Assembly (NCBI RefSeq): GCF_020085105.1
Contig: NC_058046.1
Location: 8,718,675 to 8,782,674 of the forward strand
Source: Siniperca chuatsi
Lineage: Eukaryota; Chordata; Actinopteri; Centrarchiformes; Sinipercidae
Length of the DNA stretch: 64,000 nt
Direction of reading: 5' to 3'
Shown here: positions 6,446-63,300 of the stretch, piece after piece
Position numbering within the stretch: position 1 is the first letter of the stretch
Layout of the letters: each line of letters opens with the position of its first letter
Position numbers and translations under genes: made by a program
Notes under the pieces: generated by a model
The model's input: only the letters and a program-made list of their open reading frames with translations
What the model was told of the DNA's origin: nothing
Databases searched by the model: none

Positions 6446-7753
6446 TTATAAAAACGAGTCAAGCCCCCCGTCGTGCAGGTTGCCTTCGTTTGCGTTGTCA
6501 AAGCTGTTCTTCCCGTGGATCTGTTTGAGGTGCTTGCGGAGAACTGGTTTGTGAGCAAAAACCATGTCACAGTAGTTGCAGCGGTGTGGCTTGTCCCCAC
6601 TGTGCAGGTTTAGGTGATCCAGCAAAGAACACTTTTGGGTGAAGGTCTTACCGCAGATTTTACACTGGAAGGGCTTGATGCCGGCGTGGACGCGCATGTG
6701 TCGGTGCAGGTTGCCCTTCTGTGTGAAGGTCTTGCCGCACAGGAGGCACATGAACAGCTTGTGCATCTTGAGGTGGTTGGCGTAGTTCTCCAGCTGGCGG
6801 AAGACCCGGGCGCACTTCGGGCACTGGTGGTACCACTGCAGAGGTTTGTCGTAGTTCCTCTGGTGCCCACTGTGTTTCTCTGCTGGAGGAGATGGAGGAG
6901 GGGGACTGAGCGGGTATCCGGCCACGCCCGGTGGAACCGCCATCTCACTGCCACGACTGTCCACAGTGGAGTTGATGAGGGAGTGCTGGGGCTCAGGAGA
7001 GTGGAGGGCAGCAGGTGGGCTGGTGGGGAAGTGACCAGTGATAGAGTTTTCTGCTACGTCAGACACAGACTCCACTTTTACTATAGTAATGTCACTCTCC
7101 ACCATACCTGGCCTTGGACGTCTGCCTAAGATCTGGAGAGGGGACTTAGGCTGTATGATCACATCATCGTCGTCGTCGTCATCATCATCATCGTCATTGT
7201 TGTCATCCCCAACCTGATCCTCCACCTCCTCCTCCTCCCCCTCCTCCTCAAGGACAGTCCGAATCTGAGAGCGCTCTTGCTCTCTCTGAGCCTGGGAGGA
7301 TAAACCCTCCTCCCTCTTCTCCCTCCTCATATCTACATCCACCTCCAGCTGACGTGCAGGCTGAGGTTTGATGAACTTACTGAGAGCTTGAGTGCACTGC
7401 TCCACAATATGACCCATCTGGAGGAAGCTGGCCACTGTCAGGTAATGCACCAGCTCCAGCTCAGGAAACTCCAGCTGACCAGTGTAGCAGGACAACAGCA
7501 GCTGCCGGCCCACCTCCGCCTCCTGGATCATGGAGATCTGGACCTCCCTGGAGTCCTGCTGAAGGATGAACTGGTCCCTCAAGAAAGAGGAGCCGGCAGC
7601 AAACACTACCTTGTGACCAGGGACCTCCAGCTGGTTGATGCGCACAGTAACATCACAGAAGCGCCTCTGGTGTCGTAGGAGGTTCATCTTCTGCAGCATG
7701 GAGTCCCCAAATGTGGCGAAGCGGAACTGCAGGATTACCTGGTTCTGGGCCAT
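6446..7753 (-). CDS. zbtb26: Zinc finger and BTB domain-containing protein 26
   Basis: Nuclear DNA-binding factor, probably a transcriptional regulator like other ZBTB proteins. It is a single coding exon of 435 residues. The BTB/POZ domain spans about residues 8-133 (FCDVTVRINQLEVPGHKVVF, LLLSCYTGQLEFPELELVHY). An acidic linker follows with an 11-aspartate run encoded by a GAT/GAC repeat, then the conserved ALHSPEPQHSLINSTVDSR block. Four C2H2 fingers lie at about residues 308-415, with LFMCLLCGKTFTQKG and FAHKPVLRKHLKQIHGKNSF nearly as I recall them in human ZBTB26. I chose the ATG at 7753 because a splice acceptor (AAACAG before 7781) separates it from the upstream in-frame ATG at 7831. 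Human ZBTB26 is about 441 aa; here the tail after the last finger is shorter and the linker longer. A hAT-like element starts 76 bp downstream. Confidence 0.95.
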   Translation of the reverse strand: MAQNQVILQFRFATFGDSMLQKMNLLRHQRRFCDVTVRINQLEVPGHKVVFAAGSSFLRDQFILQQDSREVQISMIQEAEVGRQLLLSCYTGQLEFPELELVHYLTVASFLQMGHIVEQCTQALSKFIKPQPARQLEVDVDMRREKREEGLSSQAQREQERSQIRTVLEEEGEEEEVEDQVGDDNNDDDDDDDDDDDVIIQPKSPLQILGRRPRPGMVESDITIVKVESVSDVAENSITGHFPTSPPAALHSPEPQHSLINSTVDSRGSEMAVPPGVAGYPLSPPPPSPPAEKHSGHQRNYDKPLQWYHQCPKCARVFRQLENYANHLKMHKLFMCLLCGKTFTQKGNLHRHMRVHAGIKPFQCKICGKTFTQKCSLLDHLNLHSGDKPHRCNYCDMVFAHKPVLRKHLKQIHGKNSFDNANEGNLHDGGLDSFL

Positions 7754-7781
7754 AGTGAACCTAAGGCCAGCAGCAGTGCAC

Positions 7782-8990
7782 CTGTTTAGGACAAATACAG
7801 AGACTGCATCATCTCTCCCGAACAGTCGCACACTATAAATTGTGTGAATTTGATATTTTGTCTGTAAATATTAGACAACTGTAGCCACTCCTCACATTAA
7901 ACTCTGCTTCATAGACATAGAAAGGAATCATTCTACATTCAGAGACACAGTCGACATTTTAATTAAAGATAAAGAGCTGATTTATGTTACTCCCACCACC
8001 TGCGTAAATCACATTTATCACTATAAGCTTCATCAAACGTGGCGCGTGCTGACAGAGAACGTAGAACCAAACTCAGTTCGAAAACCTGCCAATTTAACAC
8101 GAGCATGCGTGTCTGTTTCATAAGCTAGTTAGTTAATTAAATACCGTTGTTTCAAAATATTTTCAGAAAAACTGTCCGCTCTTCAGTTCGGCGTTCATGC
8201 ACTCAAACAAATAGTAACAACAAATTTTAACTGTAGCAACTTCTAAAGTTATAACTAAGTGGTTTGCCTGGTGGTAACAGTGGTGAGCAACGTGTAACGT
8301 TAAGCGAAAAAGATTAAATATTGTTGAATAATGCTTAACGTTACAGCTGAAAGCCGAATTACATTAAATGGTAAAAAAAAGATTACGCTATATTAGTTAT
8401 AGAGTTGCTAAGGTTTGCCGATAAACAAGACATTAATGCAAAACTGTCTGAACAATTCTTAGCGGACAATGGCACTTGGTTTTCGCTGTCCGAGTTGAAT
8501 TGTCTGAACCTATGGCCGCATCAATGTTAGCTTAGCTCCACCGGTAACGTAATGTTAACATATTAGCTTTCTTTTGAGGAAAATAGGTAGCCTGGGCATT
8601 ACTCTTCGGGTTACAGAAAGACAAAAAAGTTATCTTGTATAAAGTGACTCTCCATGTCTAACGTTAGCTATAACGTTATATGTAAACAATCAGTCACAAG
8701 TCGCCTCCCTATTTCCCTTTGGCCTAACGTTACTCCTCCACTCTTTAGCCGACATCTCAGGCTGTCTGATAACATGCAACACACAGCTAACTAACTAGCT
8801 ATATTATCATGTTTTACTTTAGTTGACACAGTAATTAAGTGTTGTGTACCTGTTAACCCCTTGTAAACACACCCGTTAAAGGCGGGTTGTCATCGGAAGG
8901 ACACTTGCTTGTGTCTGACTGGGGATATAAAGGAGCTGCTCCGGATGCAAAACCAATTTAAAGGCCCAGTACAATTTATATGATCGCCTC
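7782..8990 (-). promoter_or_regulatory. Probable zbtb26 5' region with TAACGTTA motif cluster
   Basis: No coding exon is visible. The palindrome TAACGTTA occurs five times, at 8295, 8336, 8659, 8671 and 8725. A possible untranslated first exon ends at 8850 (GGTTAACAG before GTACAC on the minus strand), which could splice to the acceptor at 7781. That splice is a guess from consensus only. Confidence 0.35.
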
Positions 8991-11206: not shown

Positions 11207-14200
11207 CTATCTTCCATACCAGGTGTAACTGTAGCCACCCAAAGTGACCAAGGCAACCAGTCCTATTGACGCAGCAGCAGCAGACAGAGATGAAACCCTC
11301 AGAACATAGGATATACCTGGCACAAGGAAATGCTGCGTGTGAGTAACTGGCAACTTTCTACATCTGCTTGTTTTTTGCATTTTACACTGCATTTTAAAGT
11401 CCTTTCTCTAATTTTAAAAATTACACTATAGGGTTTGGGTAGTTTGGCCAGTGAAGTACCTCTTACTTTAGCCCACAGGACACAGGAACTTTTTAAAGCC
11501 TAGGAGAGAAAACATTCAGGCATTTTAACAAGTAAACTGTAAAGTCTGATGCAGTGTCTCAGTCATTTTATACCATACTATATAGTAGTTGCACCCACCA
11601 TTTTCCACTGACTGACCGCTCGTAAGATGATATAATAGTCCTTGCCATTCTCCAGTGGGGCATTAAAGAAGCCTCCATAGTGGAGTTCATCCCCTACAGT
11701 AAAGTTCATCTCTGTACCAACATGTCTGACATCAATCTGAGCAGTGATGTACTCTGTTGAGGACTTTACTTTGCTTGAGGGGTCTGAGCTCGCCGGAGAG
11801 GAACAGTCAAATATCACAATCCCCTCTACATGAAGCACAAACACTTGGTACAAACTGCCAAAGGAAGAACAAAAAAAATCACTTATTTTGAAGGTGCAAC
11901 AAGCAACATTTAAACTTGAATATACAATGGCCATATTTATTTGGGATGAAGATTTGGGTAAACAGGGTTTTTTTTGTAAATGTGGTCTTTTTTAGATACA
12001 CTGTGATCTCTTTACTATGATCTTTACATAAAGTAATAAAACCAGTATACACACAATTGATTTGAAAGAGTTATACTGTATATTTAGGTTTATTAGTATG
12101 ATGATATACATTTTCAGTGGCTTTACAATTTACAAATTAATATCCTACTATCCATATGGCCATAAATAAAGATACGTTAACACATGAATTTCTTTACAAG
12201 AAAGATTTGTAACACCTGAACATAGCGACCGATACTGGATTTTGTGGCCGAAACTGTTATCGATATGTGGGAGTTTAAAAGATCTGATAACGATATAGCG
12301 GCCTATAGTAATTTTTTTTTTACAACATAAACACATAACATAAACAAGCAATCTTGATATGGATCCCTTAGATTTGTTTTTAAAGAACTGATTAAGGAAC
12401 ATGCTACAATGGACAAACTATGTAATGCTGACACTGTCTCTAAATTAACTCAAACCTAGTTTGGCATTTCTTTACTGCAAAATCTTGTCATTTATTGGCC
12501 AACATATACACAGATACTGATATACATGTACAATAAGCTAATATCAGCTGAAACATTGACCTGGCTGATTTATTGGTTTAGCTCTAGCCCTTATACCTGC
12601 TTCTCTGTGGTGTTTGGGTGTCATGAATGTGGTATGAACTAGATTTATTATGATGTTTTATAAATGATTACTTTTTTTTTTAAAGTTTATGTTTTTTAAG
12701 TAAAAGTACAGTAAATTATGTGCATTCGTGGGCCAATCTGAATCAAGTATTCAACAAAGCTGCAAGTATTGTACTGAATCATAAAGATTCAACCACCATT
12801 ATAAATTAGGGACATTGGTAAGTCATTTGAAGCATGACTGTCTATTTTATCTCATAAGGTGTTAATGAGAAATTTGAGAAATATTTCACAAAATATCATG
12901 TACACTGAGACCTCCCAGTTCACATCCCCAATCAGTGTGTTCCATTGCCTGCAACATATGAGTCCAATACTGTATCTTGCCATCTTACCTTATTGGGTCC
13001 AGTGTGTCGGGTGATCTGTGTAGCCTCAAAGTTGGTACAGGAGTCTCAAATTCTCTGTAGTAGACAACTGGTGCTGGAGGCACTGTCAAATGTTATAATA
13101 TTTAATGTGCAATGCTCAGTATAAAAAAGACTGCATCAAAGGAAATATAATTATATTAGACCTAAATATTTCCAGAAAGCTGATAAAACATTTAGTTAGA
13201 GTAGAGTAAATTTAAGGCTGTACAATGATACCTGGTAAACTGGTGTTAGTGGTGATGGTGGCCGTGTATCTGGAAGACACTGCAGTGATTGAAATGCTGT
13301 AGTTTGTGACTGGAAGCAGGTACAGACAGAGTTCCAGCTGGTCAGCCTTGGAGCTCAGAAACCGCTTCCTTTCATCATGAAAAGACCTCTGATAGTCTCT
13401 GGATCCTATATATGTCACCTGGAATGGTTACATCGAATGTGGCATCAGTCAGGGTTACAAAACCCTCCATAGATGAAGATTAAAAAAAAACAGTATGGTA
13501 ATTGCATGGTAAATGCTAAACTGTCTATACACATTCACATACAGTGCCTTGCGAAAGTATTCGGCCCCCTTGAACTTTGCGACCTTTTGCTACATTTCAG
13601 GCTTCAAACATAAAGATATAAAACTGTAATTTTTTGTGAAGAACCAACAACAAGTGGGACACAATCATGAAGTGGAACGAAATTTATTGGATATTTCAAA
13701 CTTTTTTAACAAATCAAAAACTGAAAAATTGGGCGTGCAAAATTATTCAGCCCCTTTACTTTCAGTGCAGCAAACTTTCTCCAGAAGTTCAGTGAGGATC
13801 TCTGAATGATCCAATGTTGACCTAAATGACTAATGATGATAAATAGAATCCACCTGTGTGTAATCAAGTCTCCGTATAAATGCACCTGCACTGTGATAGT
13901 CTCAGATGTCTGTTTAAAGCGCAGAGAGCATCATGAAGAACAAGGAACACACCAGGCAGGTCCGAGATACTGTTGTGGAGAAGTTTAAAGCCGGATTTGG
14001 ATACAAAAAGATTTCCCAAGCTTTAAACATCCCAAGGAGCACTGTGCAAGCAATAATATTGAAATGGAAGGAGTATCAGACCACTACAAATCTACCAAGA
14101 CCTGGCCGTCCCTCTAAACTTTCAGCTCATACAAGGAGAAGACTGATCAGAGATGCAGCCAAGAGACCCACAATCACTCTGGATGAACTGCAGAGATCTA

Positions 14201-17200
14201 CAGCTGAGGTGGGAGACTCTGTCCATAGGACAACAATCAGTCGTATACTGCACAAATCTGGCCTTTATGGAAGAGTGGCAAGAAGAAAGCCATTTCTTAA
14301 AGATTCTTGGGAGACACACCAAACATGTGGAAGAGGGTGATGAGCAATGCAAAACGTTATGTTTGGCATAAAAGCAACACAGCTCATCACCCTGAACACA
14401 CCATCCCCAGTGTCAAACATGGTGGTGGCAGCATCATGGTTTGGGCCTGCTTTTCTTCAGCAGGGACAGGGAAGATGGTTAAAATTGATGGGAAGATGGA
14501 TGGAGCCAAATACAGGACCATTCTGGAAGAAAACCTGATGGAGTCTGCAAAAGACCTGAGACTGGGATGGAGATTTGTCTTCCAACAAGACAATGATCCA
14601 AAACATAAAGCAAAATCTACAATGGAATGGTTCAAAAATAAACATATCCAGGTGTTAGAATGGCCAAGTCAAAGTCCAGACCTGAATCCAATCGAGAATC
14701 TGTGGAAAGAACTGAAAACTGCTGTTCACAAATGCTCTCCATCCAACCTCACTGAGCTCGAGCTGTTTTGCAAGGAGGAATGGGCAAAAATTTCAGTCTC
14801 TCGATGTGCAAAACTGAGACATACCCCAAGCGACTTACAGCTGTAATCGCAGCAAAAGGTGGCGCTACAAAGTATTAACTTAAGGGGGCTGAATAAATTT
14901 GCACGCCCAATTTTTCAGTTTTTGATTTGTTAAAATTTGAAATATCCAATAAATTTCGTTCCACTTCATGAGTGTCCCACTTGTTGATTCTTCAAAAAAT
15001 TAGTTTCATAGCTTTGTTTGAAGCCTGAAATGTGGCAAAAGGTCGCAAAGTTCCAGGGGACCGAATACTTTCGCAAGGCACTATATAACCAGAGAATAAG
15101 GTTAAGAAATTACTGAAAGCACCTATTTACTATATGCTGGCAATTAAATACAAATATGGTCAAAGATAAACAGCAACTACAGTGAAAGGATAATCAAATC
15201 TCCTTTTACCTTGTAAACTTCTGTGTCCTCCTCATACTTCTCTGCTTTCCAATGCAGACAGTTTTCATTGAGGACAAATAGGTGATTGATAGGTGGCTTT
15301 ATTTCTGTAAGAGATACGGGAATGAAAATAGAGTGATGGTACACCTTACCTTCACCTTTTGTCATTACAAATACCTTTACAGATATGCAAATCAATAACA
15401 TCACACAAGCATCATACCTATTCAGGTGCTTTTATTTTGTGAGGCCTAATGAACATTGCAACTTACAGATGTTCCTAGCGGGGTTATGTTTTTACTCACC
15501 TATGCATCTCAGTGTAGCTTTCTGCCACACCCCAGAGCTGCCACACAAAGAGACGTTGCTGCCCCTCCAGCTGTGATATCCATCCACACAGCGGTGGATC
15601 ACAACACTTCTGTTATGCCACACCACCTCCGAGTTGGCAAGGAAGGGAACCGGGCCACATTTAGCTAGGAAAACAATTGCACTGATTGGTTAACTAATTG
15701 ATTGAAGTATTGTGGGACTTTATAAGCATGGTTATATACAGAATACACGTATCTATGTCTATCTTTGTTTGGGTTCCCAATGCCTTCCGCTGGAAGAATC
15801 AGCCATTGCTGAGTGAAGTCAACATCACATGCAACATTCCTCAACATTCATTCAGCAGTGGATGGACCCACAGAAAAATTTTTGGATAATGTGAAAAGTT
15901 ACAAAACATTATCAACTCAACTCAATTTACCTCAAAAGCTACAACAAGCACAGAACATAGAGCCCAAGCAGGAATATACAACAGAGCCTCTAACCACAAC
16001 TGAAGCAATGTAGAACTGAGCATCCATCAGTTACTTAGCAGATAAATGAAAACATGTTAATGTTGTCTATGTATGAGATTATCACTGTACCTTTGCACTT
16101 TACAGATACTTTCTCCCACTCTCCTGACAGTAAACATGTTGAAATATTATTTCCACTCTCCTGGTAAAATCCATCCATACACTCATACAGCGCCACACTG
16201 CCCGGCCTACTGGTGCGATCCCACAGGAGCTTATTATGGGGGAGCTTTAGTGGGGGACCACAGCTTATTTCTGCATACAGACATGAATTAGCACAGACTG
16301 TGTGCTATTAACAGGTATATTTATATCACAGAGAAAAACACAACATAAAGAGAACTAGTGGCAAATTCTATTCTGTGTACATATTACACTTATGTGTGCT
16401 TCATATGCAAAGAATAAATCCTCAAATAAATATGCAAGTTTATAGAGTACAGTATTGGGACTCTACTACGTTTGCATATCTCAACTAGGCATTTACAAAG
16501 CAATATAGGCCTACTAATACTTATATTTTAAAGCAAGAGTTTGATATTTTGGGAGATATGCTTATTCAATTTTATACCGACAGCTATATGAAAAGATCAA
16601 TATCACTCTCATGTCTCTACGGTAAATATGAAGCTACAGCTAGCAGCCAGTTAGCTCATCTTAGCATTAAGACTGGAAATAGAGGGAAACAGCTAGTATG
16701 GCTCTGTCCAAAGGTAACAAATGTAAAATCTCTAAGCTTTTAAGGTGCTGCTGATTTTGCTGAACAGAGCCAGGCTAGCTATTTCCCTCGGTTTCCTTTC
16801 TTTATGCTAAGCAAGGTTAACTGCCTTCTGGCTGTAGCCTTACATTGAACGGACAATTTCAAGAATCTTCTCATCTAACTCTCAGCAAAAAAAAAGAAAA
16901 GCTAATTAGGATATTTCCCAAAATGTCAAACTATTGCTTTACATATTTTGTTCAAATTGCTACAAATATTCTGAAATTAAAAGTAGTTTATCAATATATC
17001 TGTCATCAGACATTGCACCTTCACACCATAGATCAATATCCTCCCACAGTCCATTCTCTCCACATACTGAGTAGTTTCTTAGGCTCCTGGTGTAATATCC
17101 TTCCTCACATTGGTAATACACCACACTGTCAATGTGTGATGTGCCGTTCCATAGCATTTTAGCATGAGGTTTAAAAACAGGCTCTTGACAATTGATTTCT

Positions 17201-20200
17201 ACAACAAAAAGACAAGTCATTGTAGCATTGTAGATAGATGTCAAAATGTTAAAATCTATGAGACAAGATACAATACACACTTGAAATAATGGTTGAAATG
17301 GCAGATGAATGATGACAGTAACATTCATACTGTTCAGTTACAGCATGCAAATTATGATGTATTGTCAACATTTGAGATGATTGCATCATTACTTTTATTT
17401 GAGGCAGTTAACCCAATACTCTGTTGTGTAGACTAATGTCATTATCACCTTGACAGAGCAGAGAGGCTCCATCCCATTCTCCGCTGGCAGTACAAACTGA
17501 CACATTTCCCTCTCTAACGTTGTGATATCCGGAGTCACACTGATAAACAACCTGAGAGCCCACAGTAGAGATATTATCCCACAGCATGATTGAATGAGGG
17601 ATGGGTGGGGGCACACCACAGTCAACTTCTACAAGGATGGATATTGCATTATTTAATTGAGGGAAAACAGTTATTATTTGACTCTGGACAATCGCAATGG
17701 AAACAAAACCAACCACAGCATTAACAACAATTTTGAGCAAGTTGTTACCTTTGCATGAGATGTTTGGTTTTGTCCAGTAACCATTAATTGTGCACAATGA
17801 TATGTTATTTCCTCCAGTGTGATAAAATCCTACTTTACAGTAGTAAGTCACGGTGCTTCCAGGGTTGGAGCAGCCATTCCACATTTGCCCTGTGTGAGGC
17901 AGTACAGGAGGATCCCCACATAATATCTCTGGGACAAAAATTATACACACAGGGGGGTTATACATATTTCCAAAAATTATGAAAAAAATTTAAAAAAACA
18001 TTTTGAGTACATAAAATACAAGTTTTATTCTCATGAACTGCTATAAATTTGAAACAAATGGTAGTTCTGTTCACATAAGGATCTCTGCCCTGCACACCAA
18101 TTCCATAATACAGACACACAGGTGATTTCACTTGTGTTGATTGGCTCTTCTCAGGACTGTGTGGGCATGCACAGACTAATAAACCAGGATAAGTGAAAAC
18201 ACCGGTGTGGGTGTGCAGGCCAGTGTCATTTTTTTGTAAAGCACTTTTAATTTAGTAATAATTTCGCCTAAAACTAGCTACACAATAAGACATGACAGAA
18301 AGCACTAGAAATAGTTTCCTGCCTTTTCATATTTGAAAAGAAAACCATTTCATTCATTGTATAAATTACCTTGGCACAACAGAGTTGGGTGGGTCCATTG
18401 ACCGTTTTCATTACAGATGGATACATTATGTCCTCCTTTGTTATGAAAGCCCTCTTTACAAAAATAGAGTACAGTGCTGCCAGGGGTTGAATTACTGTTC
18501 CACACCTGCTCAGTGGATTCAATTATAGGAGGACTTCCACACAAGATCTCTACAAGGAATAACAGGCACCACAACCACGTAACATGAACACTGGAATTCA
18601 GATTAGTTTCCTTTCAGTTTACTCTATTCAGGTATTTAAATGTGCAAAGAAAAAAAAAGGACGATACCGTATATTTGTGTGCGTTGGATCAGTTTGTTTG
18701 TCAAAACTCTAAAACAATCTAATAAAACAGTGATTGTACCTTGACAGAGCATGGACGGTCTTTCCCACTGTCCAGCAGCAGTACAGATGGATACATTGCC
18801 CTTTCCAACATTATGATATCCAGGGTTACACTGATAAAGCACCTCAGTGCCCATCCTTGACCTCTTATTCCACAGCACATAAGAGTGAGGGAGGGCAGGG
18901 GGAGAGCCACAGTCAACATCTGAGAGCCAAAGCAGTGACATGCTGCATGAAACCATATTCATTGGATAATCTCCAGGTATTCTGTCTGACAGGTCACTTT
19001 CATGATACCTGTGCTCACTAAAAACCCTGCAGTCAGTAGTGGGAGATTTATTGGGCTATATTATCATTCCCTTAAGGCTTAAAGGATAAGTTCATGATTT
19101 TTCAAGTTTGTCTTAAAACAATAGTTAGGTGCCCATATAAACTTTTAATCATTTATCCTGTTCATACTGGCCATGAAGAGATCTCTTCCTAATGTGATTG
19201 CAATAGATATGATGGAGGACAAAATCCACAGTCCTATTGTTTTAAGAAAGACTTTGAAAACTGTGAACCTATCCTTTAAAAAACACTCATCATGCTTGCT
19301 CTTTTATTTATAGGCACTAATAATTGCTTACATCGTATTGTTGTAACTGTGAGGTCAATTTATGTGCTCTTTGTGTCTTTGTAGAAATTATGTCTACAGC
19401 CATATTAGAGGCTCTGTGAGACTGTACTTAGGAAAAGCGGTGCTTTAAGCTAATTGCTAACATTGGCATGCTAACATTCTCACAGTGACAATGCTAACTT
19501 GCTCATTTTTACCATCTTAGTTGATGGGAATGTCATTTGTTTTTGCAGGTATTTGGTCATAAACCAAAGTATTGGACAAATTTTAACCTGATGATGGTGC
19601 TAGATGAAAAGTTAATTAGTCATTAAAATTATTGCAATTCATCCTAAGGGAAACATTAATATTGACAGACAGATTGACATTGCAATGCTGCTAGTGTGGC
19701 TAAAAATACTTATTGTTACAATTTTTATTATGATACAATTTATCGAGATACATTTGACAATTTATCAAGATAGATTTGAGATCAACCAACCCTTGTGTGT
19801 TTCACATTTACCTTAAAAACATTTAGCTGACACTGTTAATAAGTCCTGAAAAGACACACAATCAAATAAACACACCTTTCTAGATCATGAATGTTACCCA
19901 AGAGCAGAGAAAGCAAAGTACAGACTTGCAACGTGCCGATGAATAATCATGAATATTTATATAATGTTAGAAGGGGAAAAATTATTTAACAATTTTTTTT
20001 GCTTGTGTTTTGTTACCTTCACACACCTTTCTAGATCATGAATGTTACAAGCACCCAAAAGCAGAGAAAGCAAAGTACAGAGTTTTTGCTTGTGTTTTGT
20101 TACCTTCACAGACCATGGTGGGTTCTTTCCACAGTCCATCAGCTCCACACACAGAGCTGTTGTCTCCACTCCTCCACACAAAGCCTTCATCACAGACAAA

Positions 20201-23200
20201 CATGGCCACACTGCTGTATGTGGTCCCTGTGACTGAGAGCAGCACCGTGTCCTCCACTGAGGCAGGCTGGCCACAGTCAACCACTGATTGGAACAAGAAC
20301 ATACAAAACTCACTCAAAAGATTTCACATTCAAGACGGACTGTCACTATTATACCAGCCAGGACCAAACTGAGGGGTACACACACTACTGACATTAAGGG
20401 ATCTAAAAAGCGCAACTAGGTTAGAATGTATTTGCAATTAACTCCAGGTGCTTCTTTGGAGTACAATTTATGTGGAGCAACAGGCAAAATACATAGTAGG
20501 AATATTTTGTTTTATAAAGGGTTTGAAAGTCTATCTAGCATACTGCCCCTTGCTTGATGTTTTCAAAATCCCAAATCCATACCACATACTAAGCAGGTTT
20601 TGAGTATGTAGTGTATTCATATTCACGCTGGAAAAGCGACAAAATTGAATGTACTGTCAGTATGCTTATCCAAATCCCATTAATGCGGTTTTACCTTTGC
20701 AGGAAGCTTTGTCTCTGTGAGGGTGGAAGGGCTCCACTCCGTTGTGGATTTGATATCCCAGCTGGCAGCTGCAGTCAAAACTGCCCTCAAGATTCCTGCA
20801 TTGACCCCCCTCTCCACACAGGCCTGGGATCCTGCACTCATCAATGTCTGCACAACCAATGGTAAATGAGTATGTGACATAAAAATGAAAAATGTCTGTA
20901 ATAATTTCTCATTTTTAGTCTACATTTTTTAATCTCTTATGTGTGACTCTATTAATGTAATTATGTTTCACATACCTACCTTTTGGATGACTCACATGAC
21001 AGTTTTTGGCCTATTCCCTTTTCTTTAGTTTACCCCTTTAACAGCCCTTGTTAAAAAATTTCCTTGGCATGACAGAGTTGGGGCGGGGGGGTTCCACTTA
21101 CCTTTTCATTACAGATTGATACATTATGTCCTCTTTTCTTATGAAAGCCCTCTTTACAAAAATAGAGTACAGTGCTACCAGGGGTTGAATTACTGTTTCA
21201 CACCTGCTCAGTGGATTCAATTATAGGAGGACTTCCACACAAGGTCTCTACAAGGAATAACAGGCACCACAACCATGTACCACCTGCATTCAGATTTGTT
21301 CCCTTTCAGTTTACTCTATTCAGGTATCTCAATGTGCAAAGAAAAAAACGAAGATAACGTAAATCTGTGTGCCTTGGATCAGTTTTTCAAAACTCTAAAA
21401 TGATCTGATAAAACAGTGACTGTACCTTGACAGTGTTACGATGAGCTTTGAAAGCTGGACTCAAACGCAGGAGGTTTATTAGATAATAGGAGAATGATGG
21501 TGGATGAAAGTAAACGGGAGGCAGACAGGCAAGCAAGCAGTGATCAGGGCACAAAACACACACACACTGTCATGGCCGTGACAGTAGGGGGTAGTAGGGC
21601 TGCCCAAGCATCCTTCCAGACCTTACGGCAACGATGAAGGTGGGCTTGGACAGAGAGAACCGAGACTTTATCCTCCTGGGCTGGGAACAAGCAAGGTTGT
21701 AAACCCATGGCACAGAGAAATGGTGGCATACCTGTGGCAGCGATTGACAGCGAGTTGTGGGTGTACTCAACCCAAGCCAGCTGAGTACTCTAGGAGGAGG
21801 GGTTTCCGGAAAGCCACACAGTGAAGGGCAGCACTGAGGTCTTGCTTGGCTCGCTCCCCTTGACCGTTGGTCTGTGGGTGATAACCAGAGGACAGAATCA
21901 TTGTGGCTCCGAGGGTTTGACAGAAGGCTTTCCAAACTTGAGAAATGAACTGGGGTCCGCAGTCTGAGATGATGCCGGTGGGGATCCCATGGAGGCGGAA
22001 GATGTGGTTAACCAGGAGGTCTTATGTTTCCAGAGCTTAGGGGAGTGTAGGCAGACCCACAGAGTGTACTGCTTTAGAAAATCTGTCCACAATGGTGAGT
22101 ATGGTGGTGTTACCTTGGGAAGGGTGAAGTCCAGTAATGAAGTCTAGGGTGATATGGGACCAAGGTCGACCAGGAACCGGTAGTGGGCGGAGGAGGCCAG
22201 CAGGAGGTTGGTGGGAGGCCTAGATGTGAGCACAAACAGTTCAGGCAGAGATGAAGGCATGGGAGTCTGCAACCATGGTGGACCACCAAAAACGCTGCTT
22301 CAGGAGCGACAGAGTGCTTCAGGAGCGCCAGAGTGCGACTGATGCCAGGGTGACAGGAAACCTGAGATGTGTGTGCCCACTGCAGGACCTGGGAGCGTAC
22401 AAAGTCAGGAACAAACAGGCGGTTTGGAGAAGTGTTACCTGGGCTTGGCTGGGTCTGCTGGGCGTCCCTGACCAGGGACTCAACGTTACAAGTTACTGCT
22501 CCCACCATGCAGGAGGCAGGGAGGATGGTCTCAGGGTCAGAAGAGGACGCTGCGTTGGTGAACTGCTGGGAGAGAGCATCTGGTTTTTTGTTTCGGGGCC
22601 TGGACGGTAAGTAAGGGTGAATGAGAACCAACCAAAGAACAGGGCCCAGCGAACTTGCCGGGAGTTCAGCCATTTGAATGTAGACCAGGTTCTTGTGGTC
22701 TGTCCACAAGATGAATGGTTGTTCAGCTCCCTCCAGCCAGTGCCTTCATTCCTCCAGGGCCAGTTTGATGGCCAACTGCTCCTGGTACTCAACGTCATAA
22801 TTTTTCTCAGCTGGGGTCAGGTGTCAAGAGAAGACACAAGAGTGGAGCTTCTGGTCATCAGCAGAAGGCTGAGAGAAGACAGATCCAACCCCAGTGCTGG
22901 AAGCGTCCACCTCCACAATGAACTGGCGTGAGGGGTCAGGGTGGACGAGCACAGGGGCTCATGTGAAACGTGACTTGAGTTTAGTGAAAGCTGCCTCGAC
23001 CTCTGGGGTCCAAACAAAGGGGACTACTGGGGAAGTAAGTTTAGTCAGGGGTGCTGCCACTCTATTGTAGTCATAGATGAAGCGACGATAAAGGTTGGCA
23101 AAACCAAGAAACTGCTGGAGCTGTTTGACTGAACTGGGTTTGGGCCACTGTACCACTGCCTGGATCGTTTCTGGGTCCGTCTTCACCTGCCCCTATTCAA

Positions 23201-26200
23201 TGATGTAGCCCAGGAAAGAAACAGAACTGACATGGAACTCACATTTTTCTGCTTTCACAAAAAGCTTGTTCTCCAGGAGTCTTTGAAGCACCTGTCTGAT
23301 GTGCACCACATGTTCTTCTGGGTTGTCGGAACATAGATGTCGTCCAAATACACAAAGACTGAGTGGTTGAGGAAGTCACGCAGCACGTCATTGACGAGAG
23401 CCTCGAAGACAGCGGGGCATAGGTGAGTCCGAAGGGCATCACCAGGTATTTGATGTGGCTGAGGGGGGTGTTGTAGGCTGTCTTCCACTCATCTCCTTCT
23501 CATATTCTGACCAGATGGTAAGCGGTCTGTAGATCCAGTTTGGAGAAGATGGTGGCTTCTTGAATGGGTTTGAAGGCTGAGTTGATACAGGGCAAGGGGT
23601 ATTTGATTATAATGGTGATAGCATTGAGACCACGGTAGTCAATACAGGGGCGGAGAGAACGGTGTTTCTAAGCAACAAAGAAGAAACCTGCACCCACTGG
23701 GGAAGAAGACGGCTGGATGATGCCAGCAGCCAGAGAATCGTGGATGTACTTCTCCTTGCAGGACGAGACAGGTTAAACAGACGACTAGAGGGCAAGGGGG
23801 CTCCAAGGAGAAGTTCAATGGGACAGTCGTAAGGTTGGTGGGGAGGAAGGGAGAGAGCATGCTGCTTACTGAAAACCTCACTGACGTTATGATACTCAAG
23901 GGGAACGTTGGACACATCGGGAGGCTCGATAGAGGGTGGAGAGGTAGTGGCCTCTACAGAGACAATGTCTTTACCAAATTTTATGGGAATCCATCCAATA
24001 GTTGTTGAGACATTGACAGACAGATTGACATTGCCATGCTGCTAATGTGGCTAAAAATACTTATTGTGATACAATTGATCGAGATAAATTTGACAATTTA
24101 TCAAGATAGATTTGAGATTATATCAACCAACCCTAGTGTGTTTCACATTTACCTTATAAACATTTAGCTGACACTGTTAATAACTCCTGAAAAGACAAAC
24201 AATCAAATAAACACACCTTTCTAGATCATGAATGTTACAAGCACCCAAAAGCAGAGAAAGCAAAGTACAGAGTTTTTGCTTGTGTTTTGTTACCTTCACA
24301 GACCATGGTGGGTTCTTTCCACAGTCCATCAGCTCCACACACAGAGCTGTTGTCTCCACTCCTCCACACAAAGCCTTCATCACAGACAAACATGGCCACA
24401 CTGCTGTATGTGGTCCCTGTGACTGAGAGCAGCACCGTGTCCTCCACTGAGGCAGGCTGGCCACAGTCAACCACTGATTGGAACAAGAACATACAAAACT
24501 CACTCAAAAGATTTCACATTCAAGACGGACTGTCACTATTATACCAGCCAGGACCAAACTGAGGGGTACACACACTACTGACATTAAGGGATCTAAAAAG
24601 TGCAACTAGGTTAGAATGTATTTGCAATTAACTCCAGATGCTTCTTTGGAGTACAATTTATGTGGAGCAACAGGCAAAATACATAGTAGGAATATTTTGT
24701 TTTATAAAGGGTTTGAAAGTCTATCTAGCATACTGCCCCTTGCTTGATTTTTTCAAAATCCCAAATCCATACCACATACTAAGCAGGTTTTGAGTATGTA
24801 GTGTATTCATATTCACGCTGGAAAAGCGACAAAATTGAATGTACTGTCAGTATGCTTATCCAAATCCCATTAATGCGGTTTTACCTTTGCAGGAAGCTTT
24901 GTCTCTGTGAGGGTGGAAGGGCTCCACTCCGTTGTGGATTTGATATCCCAGCTGGCAGCTGCAGTCAAAACTGCCCTCAAGATTCCTGCATTGACCCCCC
25001 TCTCCACACAGGCCTCGGATCCTGCACTCATCAATGTCTGCACAACCAATGGTAAATGAGCATGTGACATAATGAAAAATGTATGTAATCATTTCTAATT
25101 TTAATCTACATTTTTTAATCTCTTATGTGTGACTCTATAAATGTAATTATGTTTCACATACCTACCTTTTGGATGACTCACTTTACAGTTTTTGGCCTAT
25201 TCCCTTTTCTGTAGTTTTACGCCTTAAACAGCCCTTGTAAAAAAGACCCAGGTCCAACTTAAACTCACCCAGGCAGTGGGTTCCATCATTTGGGATGAAG
25301 ATGGACATGTTGTTAGAAGGGCTGTAGCCAGTCAGGCAGGTACAGTAGTAGCTGCCAAATGTGTTGTAGCAGGTGGTGTGCAGCCCACAGATCTTACCGG
25401 CTCCTATGTGACACTCATCTTTATCTGGAAGAAAAAAGTATTTATTAAACTTCTACATAGAAGAGCAGGAGTTGAAATAGTAATAATAATAATAATGTTG
25501 TTAATTCCATTTGTGCTTTTCCTTCCAAAATGTCTTATGTGAAAAAGGACTATAGGATGGATTGCCACGAAATGAAGCTAGACTTTTCATCTAGCGCCAT
25601 CATCATACTTTTGTTTATGATTAAATACTTACTAAACTAATGGCATCACCTCAGCTGTATTTTGCTAAACTAAGATAGTGAATATGATAATGCTTCGTTA
25701 AGATCTGCGACACCTTTCACATTACACATAGTCATTCGATTAATTATTAATATAAAAATATTAGTTAGAGAATTTGATTAATTGCTTTTTTAAACTTTGA
25801 ATTCAATATTTAAACTCTGCAGTTCTTATTGCAAAACCTTTTCTCATTGGAAAAAACATGAACAGACTTCATTTAACTTCACATGATAAATAAATATACA
25901 CGCACAAAAAGTTTTTTCCTACCTTGACAGAGGGTTCTCCCATTTCCAACAAACCCATACTTGCAGTTACAAACTTTGCCAGAGCCGTCTGACTTGTCAT
26001 CACATGAGGCGTTAGCATGGCAGGTGGCACACACATCCAGAGTATGGCGTTCTGCTAGCATACCTGAGAGGATAGAATTAACATCCATCAGTCAATATCT
26101 TTAAAGGTTTTTCACCCCTTCTCCAGTTATCAGATTTTGAATATAATCACCAAAAATTGTCATCAGTATTCTCACCTGCTATGACACAGAGCAGAAAGAA

Positions 26201-42784: not shown

Positions 42785-50560
<7,776 letters not shown>

Positions 50561-60300: not shown

Positions 60301-63300
60301 TCAATGAGGCAGCAATCATGGACTACAGCATACGTGACCACACCCTGTTCTTGGCAGACGACGGCACAACTTCACTCAGCTCCTTCAAGCTGAAGGACTC
60401 AAACTTATTCTCTCAGGGCCAGCGTCTAAAACTCCTGGGCGACACCATCACTGCCATGGCCCTGGACTGGGCAACACTTAACATCTACTGGAGCAGCAAC
60501 AAACAGCCCCGCTTGCAGGTCACCTCCTTCAAGGCTGCGCACACTGCTGTTCTCATAAAGGAAGGTATTGGTAGAGTGGAGTCCATCGCCCTCCACCCTC
60601 CCAGTGGAAGAGTTTGTTTCACCAACCTGGGCCTGCAGGGTTCAGGTACCGTGGCTACTATAGAATGTGCCAACATGGACGGTGCTGAGCAGAGTGTGGT
60701 GTGGAAGGATGCTGTCCAGCCCACATCTCTGGAATTTTCCAGTAATGGAGATACAATTTACTGGGCTGACACAGGTAAGGATTTTTTACAAATTTTTCAG
60801 TATGGTTATGGGAAGTTTTTAAGAGTCTTCATGCATTGAAAGTCAAAAATGCAGTTGAATAAATATGTAATTTTGTTTAGAAAAGCTGTAACCACTTGGA
60901 TTCTTTCCCAGGTTTAGGGACCATTGGCTCTGTCCAGCTTGATGGCTCTGGATACAGAGAGTTGAAGACTGGTGATGGCCTGGCTGCAGTGGCTCCAACT
61001 GATGATACACTGCTCTGGATGACTGTCAGTGGTAATGGCTCATATATAGTAAACTAAATGAAAGGACACCTAATGCCATGTGTGTGTGTGTACAAACTAC
61101 CAGGAAGTGGCACTGTTTGTTTCTGTACTGCATGTTTTTTTTTTCTATAAATCAGTAGCATAAGACAATGCTTGCATGACAAATGGTCTAAAAAAATCTG
61201 TCTGAAATACAACCACAGCTTGACAGAATGTTGTTACTAAAAGGTCGAGCTATGAGTTTCCAGTTGTAAATCTCTAAACTGTTTCCTTTAGATTTCTAAT
61301 GTAGCTACATTACTTTGTGTTGGCCCTTTCCTTCAGACAAGACCAGGCTCTGGTACAGAGATGAGCAGCAGCAAAACAAGTTGTGGTTTGAGGTCGGCAC
61401 AGAAGTGGTCAGCTTAAAGGCGTTCAGCAAGTCCAGTCAGACTGGTATGTAAAAGAACCACACACCATAGCAGTTCAGAGAATTTTCAAAATGTGAGGAT
61501 ACTGAAGTGGTAAATGTCATCTAGAACCAAACCTCACCCTATACAACAAACTCAAGTTGACTGACTTTTTTTTTTTTTTTCTTCCCCCCCCCACAGGTTC
61601 AAATCAGTGCACAGAAAACAACGGCAACTGCCAGCACTTATGCCTCGCCACCCCAGGAGGTCGAACATGCAAGTGTACCCATGATCACATCCTTGTGAAT
61701 GCCACCCACTGCAGCCCAGAGCAGCACTGCCCAGGGGGTAGCAGGCCCTGTCTGGATCAACTCTCATGCCAGCCTGTTGAGAAGTTCTGTAACGGGCATG
61801 TTGACTGCTATGACCACTCAGATGAGAACTGTGAGTCTTTATGCCTCCTCTCTAAGAAAGCAATAAGAACTGGAAAATATATAAATTTACTAAATTTGAT
61901 GTAATGACATTTTAATCTAAAACAACCTAAAAATGTCATGGGTTTTTGGCTGAGACTGTCCTCTCTTCTTAGGTATCAGTCTGAAGCGGTGGTCAGGAGC
62001 CAAGGTCCCTGCTCCCACACAGCCCCGCAGCTCCTCTTTTTCTCCTTCTCGCTCACCTCTCCTTCTCTCTGAAGACACTGGTCTGAACACCACCCTGAAT
62101 GTAAGCAGTCAGCTCAGGAACCTGGACACCCAGCACTGCAGCCAGAGACGCTGCAGTGGCAACGGAGCCTGTGTGGACACCAATGGAGAGACTGCATGTG
62201 TGTGTTCCCTGGGCTACAGGGGTGATTCCTGTCAAGACCATTTCCTGAACACCATGCAGGGTCCCATCATCTACAGCGCCATGGGGCTCTGTGCAGGAGT
62301 GGTTTTCATTGTTGTGATGGCGGTGGTGGTTAAGAAGAGGAGTGCCAATACAAGGTTTGATAACTAATTAAGAAGAAACCTTTGTGTTGCAACATTAAAA
62401 ATAGCTTTAATCTGTAGCTTGAAATGTCATTTCCTTGCAAGACAACTTATTTTCTTTTTTTATAAACAAGACTCCAGCCGTGCTAGTGGCTCTGTGAGGC
62501 TATACTTAGGCAGCAGTGGTGCTTAATACTAACATGATCACAGGGATGATGCTAGCATGTCTGGCAGGTATGTTTACATCTTAGTTAGCAAACTAACGCT
62601 TGCTAATTAACGCTAAACAAAGTACAGCTGAGGAATGACTTCAGCCTTGCAAGTATTAGGTCATAAACCAAAGGATTGGTCAAATTAAATTGCGACTTGA
62701 TGGTGCTAAATTGATAGTTAAGGGACCATCAAAGTAATTTATCCTGATGGGACCATGAATGTTGGACTCAAATTTCATGGCAATCCATCAGTAGTTGTCG
62801 AGGCTTTTGCTAAAAAAAACCCAAAACATTTCAACCTTTATGGTGACACTAGAGGGGAAAGTCAGAGGATTACCAAAGTCAGAAAGCTTCATCCTCTGAA
62901 ATCTCAACTATTGAGTTGATTGCCATGAAATTTTGTACAACTATTCATGGTTCCCAGTCTGGACCAAAGTGGTGGACCGACTGACCTTGCCATCCCAAGA
63001 GTTACACCTCTAGTGTGGCAAAACTGAGCCAAGGATGCATGGATGGCATAAAATGTCCCTTTTTCCTAAGCTACAGTGTCACGATGGACTGCCAACAACC
63101 AGTTTTAGAAAGCTTGCTGTGAATGTTCAGTGTATCATGTGTTAAATGTTAAATGTTTTGTATTTCCTTCCTGCAGGATAGTTAGCCCAGAAGCAGAGAA
63201 GGAAACGAGTATGACTGACCTGGACAACAAAGATAAGACCACCCCCAGTACACAAACTGCCCCAGCAGACATGGACAAACCAGAGGTGGGTCTCCCAAAG

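Follow-up and report, generated by a model that had tools for sequence, protein, structure and literature searches.

Do two nearly identical exon pairs in one gene owe their likeness to a recent duplication, or to a later event that made old copies alike again? The question is raised by a susd1-like gene on the minus strand of a 64,000-nucleotide (nt) window of Siniperca chuatsi DNA (RefSeq assembly GCF_020085105.1, contig NC_058046.1, positions 8,718,675 to 8,782,674; all coordinates below are those of the window), in which a pair of exons encoding an EGF and a sushi domain occurs twice. Our analysis indicates that the two pairs belong to an old head-to-tail duplication, and that a core comprising the sushi exon, the EGF exon and the intron between them was very probably homogenised later by gene conversion, whichever copy was the donor.

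The exons of the gene were assigned by splice sites, phase and cysteine content. From the upstream end, the order is EGF (26063-25923), EGF (25424-25269), EGF B2, sushi B2, EGF B1, sushi B1, sushi C and sushi A1, followed by further sushi exons (Table 1), and the Pfam matches above cut-off in these exons were to EGF_3, EGF_CA and Sushi. Downstream, a Fn3_PTPRU match was found at 11581-11991, in sequence that may or may not belong to the susd1-like gene. The name combines the label given in an initial annotation, made from the sequence without database searches, with the architecture of susd1, which we take to be a signal peptide, an EGF domain, calcium-binding EGF domains, sushi repeats and an Fn3-like part; we write "susd1-like" throughout. 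Each EGF+sushi pair amounts to 153+180 = 333 nt, with intact AG/GT sites and a phase-1 join free of stop codons. The two sushi exons are identical at 180/180 nt and encode the same peptide, and the two EGF exons differ at 1 of 153 nt (20826/25016), specifying Pro in one copy and Arg in the other. The reading frame survives a join of ten exons that takes in both pairs and a join of eight that takes in just one, whichever it is, in a check that ran from the second exon as far as 17449. As judged from these joins, the gene can encode EGF-EGF-EGF-sushi-EGF-sushi-sushi..., the extra pair contributing 111 codons in phase, provided that the decayed sushi exon A2, described below, is skipped.

Comparison of the window with itself by BLAST returned three pairs of segments, 20021-21057/24211-25244 (98%), 19661-19927/24012-24274 (87%, gapped) and 18363-18747/21056-21433 (87%). 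These, together with the alignments, delimit a unit of about 2.7 kb (18363-21057) and its copy (21056-25244), joined at approximately 21050-21060 within a run of A. The duplication is present in this assembly and, for the EGF+sushi pair, has the form of an intragenic tandem exon duplication, exons and introns being repeated head to tail with splice sites and phase preserved. The unit carrying the second EGF+sushi pair has, by contrast, lost sushi exon C2 and holds a broken A2. On the existence of an extra, nearly identical pair arising by tandem duplication, the shared sushi peptide, the single differing EGF codon, the retained splice sites and the 111 in-phase codons, the initial annotation was borne out. 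A search of the genome itself (718.8 Mb assembly, 65 contigs) with the pair, in which the best 40 of 75 candidates were scored, gave 41 matches, 3 from this locus and 38 from a short dispersed repeat, and at this depth the DNA search revealed no third copy of the pair as a possible donor. The repeat responsible for the 38 matches lies at approximately 20563-20668, in the intron separating the sushi and EGF exons of B1.

Divergence between the units is strongly mosaic. Outside the 850-bp core, 48 of 814 aligned sites (5.9%) are substituted, with 20 indel events, against 4 of 850 (0.47%) and no indel inside it. With one alignment setting for all segments, substitutions numbered 28/363 in A (a count that varies with the alignment, being 37/365 in another and 33 mismatches in BLAST), 9/275 in the left flank and 11/176 in the right flank, and the indel events numbered 10, 6 and 4, respectively. 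The right edge of the tract falls somewhere in 20826-20871, while the left edge was put at 20021 because of a joint located there. A two-change-point score computed over left flank, core and right flank was matched by none of 2000 permutations, the best edges being 19903 and 20825 (3/853 differences inside, 21/448 outside). A tract of low divergence with sharp edges, introns included, is the pattern of nonallelic gene conversion, and taken at face value the two divergences (0.47% versus 5.9%) would make the tract roughly ten times younger than the duplication. The greater decay of the neighbouring A part had been correctly recognised from the outset. The initial annotation also held that 19655-21050 and 24005-25235 could be aligned throughout, which fails, as B1 is longer by about 150 bases at 19870-20020; near-identity is confined to approximately 20021-20870.

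One of the two explanations first offered for this contrast was that the duplication is young and that one part of it was free to rot; in this view A2 decays faster as a dead exon while coding constraint holds B. A2 can indeed no longer serve as a normal sushi exon, given its stop, frameshift and lost donor. However, dead sequence should not outpace neutral introns of equal age, and the introns themselves show the contrast: inside the core 3 of 517 intron sites differ, outside it (left flank, right flank and A intron combined) 37 of 629. The Fisher p is ~3e-7, for segments picked after the alignment had been seen. Coding constraint does not account for the likeness, since the core introns are about as alike as the core exons (1/333). 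We therefore rejected a young duplication with unequal decay and consider it exceedingly improbable; it could be saved only by strong non-coding constraint acting on the entire core intron. The second explanation, gene conversion of the EGF+sushi part, stands in view of the sharp mosaic and of the non-homologous left joint; the apparent upkeep of likeness may reflect just one recent event, and repeated or selected conversion has no support here.

The joint at the left edge of the core is one support for this reading. To the left of the core, B1 retains its old sequence, which can be aligned with B2 from 24012, past the splice donor and through 7 exon bases (to 24300). At 20021, B1 jumps back and restarts as B2 from 24211, after which 390 bases are identical to B2, the overlap at the joint being the 3-base microhomology ACA. 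Ninety bases of B2 have in this way two counterparts in B1, the first old and the second identical to B2. The old B1 remnant includes a vestigial donor 87 nt beyond the live donor (equivalent of the last exon base, 20017), whose nine bases match those of the live donor and whose usage would lead into a stop. The tract has a homologous edge on one side and, on the other, a non-homologous joint at a short microhomology, with about 90 bases copied beyond the presumed break point; this arrangement suggests microhomology-mediated end joining as the repair pathway. A simple recent local duplication in B1 was considered and rejected, being unlikely since the second copy equals B2 over 390 bases and the first differs from it by indels.

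The same joint bears on the direction of transfer, which was probably from B2 to B1. The reverse scenario, in which an earlier local duplication within B1 preceded a conversion of B2 by B1, is still a form of the conversion explanation; the mosaic itself is directionless, and both copies of the 90-base stretch are in B1, as this variant would have it. It needs one more event, however, while a single B2-to-B1 repair explains at once the jump-back joint at the edge of the tract, and we regard it as unlikely.

An assembly artefact would account for the core differently, the B1 core being a misplaced or polished copy of B2 (through gap filling, a graph switch or a consensus error) and the true B1 being more diverged. 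Near-identical tracts are typical sites of assembler and polisher errors, and the core is known here from assembled sequence. The old duplication, with its clearly diverged A2 and flanks on both B sides, is nevertheless required in any case, and a 3-base joint is, by our reasoning, too short for a graph switch. The 150-base insertion, moreover, is not a product of polishing, the two copies retain four differences, and the assembly comprises 718.8 Mb in 65 contigs. We judge an artefact improbable.

Several observations weigh against an old duplication followed by conversion of the core from B2, and should be set beside it. The statistical edges of the tract (19903-20825) disagree with those based on the joint (20021-20870), and the tract may stop short of the EGF codon difference at 20826. 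Divergence in the left flank (9/275) is below that in A (28/363; p = 0.017), so that the history may include more than one conversion event, the lower value reflecting either an earlier conversion or chance. The old copy of the re-duplicated stretch is distinguished from B2 mostly by indels, namely a 6-base and a ~70-base indel near the joint, with only 1 substitution in 85 bases. The direction is unproven, given that an old local B1 duplication and a subsequent B1-to-B2 conversion would give the same picture in two steps, and the history is read here from one assembled genome. Finally, a possible cryptic exon, A2', puts inclusion of the extra pair at risk, having an intact acceptor and the best donor among the 745 GT sites scored.

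The second unit has a further scar of its own, which was absent from the initial annotation. The place expected for its sushi exon C is occupied by a gypsy-like retroelement fragment, where the body of exon C2 and the adjoining intron are missing. Three of the six open pieces searched in the fragment match reverse transcriptase or integrase models, all below Pfam curated cut-offs, and the fragment is apparently old and 5'-truncated. Among the best 40 of 210 candidates for other genome copies of a 1163-base part of it, the match with the highest score showed 79% identity over ~700 bases, and the highest identity over more than 100 bases was 84% (~320 bases); with such low identity to other copies, the fragment looks like an old insertion.

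From these elements we infer the following order of events. A stretch of ~2.7 kb with four exons (EGF, sushi B, sushi C, sushi A) would first have been duplicated head to tail, after which the upstream copy would have lost sushi C to the gypsy-like element and a deletion, and its sushi A the donor and the frame. Much later, one B copy would have been overwritten by the other across ~850 bp, covering both exons and the intron between them. Most likely the B1 sushi exon was broken close to its 3' end and repaired from B2, one broken end copying B2, overshooting the break point by ~90 bases and joining the other end through the 3-base microhomology. With A2 skipped, the resulting gene could encode the extra pair, 111 codons, without loss of phase. 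On this account one sequence suffices to put three events in order, namely a tandem exon duplication, the loss of an exon to a retroelement and a subsequent repair that homogenised the copies, and near-identity of duplicated exons need not imply that the duplication is young or that the exons are under selection. The joint at 20021, in turn, suggests how germ-line conversion can finish without homology.

Whether both pairs are present in one translated mRNA is, in our estimation, an even chance, and depends on A2, the decayed exon sitting between them. A2 and A1 agree in all 28 nt leading up to the acceptor, and the lost donor of A2 is accompanied by a new one, AAG|GTAAGT at 21102, also absent from the initial annotation. 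Scored with a matrix of human donor frequencies, this site ranks first among the 745 GT sites in 15000-26200, and no other site on either strand of the window equals its score. Neutral simulations starting from A1 yielded a donor this strong in 0 of 5000 runs with substitutions only, and in 16 of 20000 with indels. Acceptor and new donor delimit the 146-nt A2', in which a TGA follows in frame after 15 whole codons; with its sites and stop present, A2' is a possible poison exon. As it was noticed after the fact and scored with human frequencies, it is best taken as a lead. Were A2' spliced in, translation would end at this stop and never reach the downstream pair.

This raises the possibility, as an outcome rather than a history of the DNA, that the extra pair is left untranslated, A2' (21247-21102) being regularly spliced in and leading to mRNA decay or to a shorter protein of three EGFs and one sushi domain. 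The conserved acceptor, the singular donor, the in-frame TGA and the rarity of such donors in the simulations all point that way, and a sense AATAAA at 21480 could terminate transcripts early. A2' is nevertheless a prediction, spotted post hoc, and its constitutive inclusion would abolish the full-length protein, with no sign here that the gene is dead; we hold the untranslated pair to be a possibility, though a doubtful one. More speculative still is the idea that the unit acts as a switch, in which alternative splicing of A2 between the pairs would yield the extra pair upon skipping, and three EGFs with one sushi domain, or mRNA decay, upon inclusion.

Conversion between duplicated exons is already known, and the present locus adds another example with an unusually legible repair scar. 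In the salamander Nav1.4 gene, nonallelic gene conversion has been described between the copies of a duplicated exon (PMC8476164). The susd1-like gene resembles it in that duplicated exons of one gene are involved, with conversion between the copies. The axolotl copies, however, lie ~180 kb apart and conversion is tied to toxin resistance, whereas here the copies sit in one transcription unit, the tract comprises two exons and an intron, and adaptive change is not apparent. CFH/CFHR likewise has duplicated segments with sushi (short consensus repeat) exons, but between neighbouring genes and not, as here, between units inside one gene. The term "gene conversion" is used in papers on these duplications (PMC1626556, PMC9923232). 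For the joint itself, the closest parallel is the non-canonical termination of gene conversion described in mouse cells, with one homologous end and the other closed by microhomology or added nucleotides (PMC5104497). The susd1-like joint resembles this pattern, with one homologous end and one microhomology end, although that system is a reporter in mouse cells for which the sister chromatid serves as donor, and ours is deduced from a single genome. Dscam similarly has tandem duplicated exons in one gene; unlike here, its exons are mutually exclusive and no gene conversion was reported (PMC3236188). Literature searches on SUSD1, exon duplication and gene conversion gave none on this duplication among the matches listed, and those on teleost and zebrafish duplications gave none with SUSD1 among the matches listed. 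We found no paper joining exon duplication, gene conversion and the sushi domain, and none on the complement receptor 1 long homologous repeat with gene conversion.

Table 1. Location of the exons, duplicated units, conversion tract and other features in the window.
Feature	Position	Strand	Remarks
Left (gene-downstream) unit	18363-21057	-	A1, C, sushi B1, EGF B1; from self-BLAST and alignments
Right (gene-upstream) unit	21056-25244	-	Decayed A2, gypsy-like fragment replacing C, sushi B2, EGF B2
Sushi exon A1	18370-18549	-	Intact counterpart of A2
Sushi exon C	18740-18919	-	Right-unit copy lost save donor edge
Old B1 remnant	19870-20023	-	Vestigial donor plus 7 nt of old exon; joint with B2-type sequence at ACA (20021-20023)
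Core, B1 side (putative conversion tract)	20021-20870		4/850 differences from 24211-25060, no indel
Sushi exon B1	20104-20283	-	180 nt
EGF exon B1	20695-20847	-	153 nt, phase 1-1, EGF of the calcium-binding type
Old right flank of B1	20871-21050		11/176 differences, 4 indel events relative to 25061-25238
Decayed sushi exon A2	21063-21247	-	In-frame TGA for Trp codon, +5 nt net, donor GT now GA
Possible cryptic exon A2'	21102-21247	-	146 nt; retains the acceptor, has gained donor AAG|GTAAGT and a stop in frame
Gypsy-like retroelement fragment	21435-23967	-	Reverse transcriptase and integrase pieces, AATAAA at 21480; right edge approximate
Core, B2 side (favoured donor)	24211-25060		From alignment; direction suggested by left joint
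Sushi exon B2	24294-24473	-	180 nt, same as B1
EGF exon B2	24885-25037	-	153 nt, Arg where B1 has Pro (one codon)
BTB-zinc-finger gene	6449-7870	-	Pfam
Tc1/Sleeping Beauty-like transposon	13539-15086		Inverted ends 220 bp, 90%; HTH and DDE_3 in two overlapping frames
MH1 (Smad-like) exon	46808-47233	-	Pfam
EGF-bearing exon of another gene	61954-62364	+	Pfam

Besides the features listed in Table 1, three further stretches of the window gave no Pfam match, a tRNA scan returned none in the 64 kb, and a tandem repeat scan of the window showed nothing relevant to the duplication. The Tc1/Sleeping Beauty-like transposon is located between the sushi exons and the Fn3-like stretch. In the downstream sushi array (17447-18921, minus strand), sushi C and a further exon C' are 59% identical at the protein level, and A1 and a further exon A' 54% identical, each being the closest of the other among the eight sushi exons compared, B1/B2 aside; the order along the gene, C, A1, A', C', suggests older duplications inside the array.

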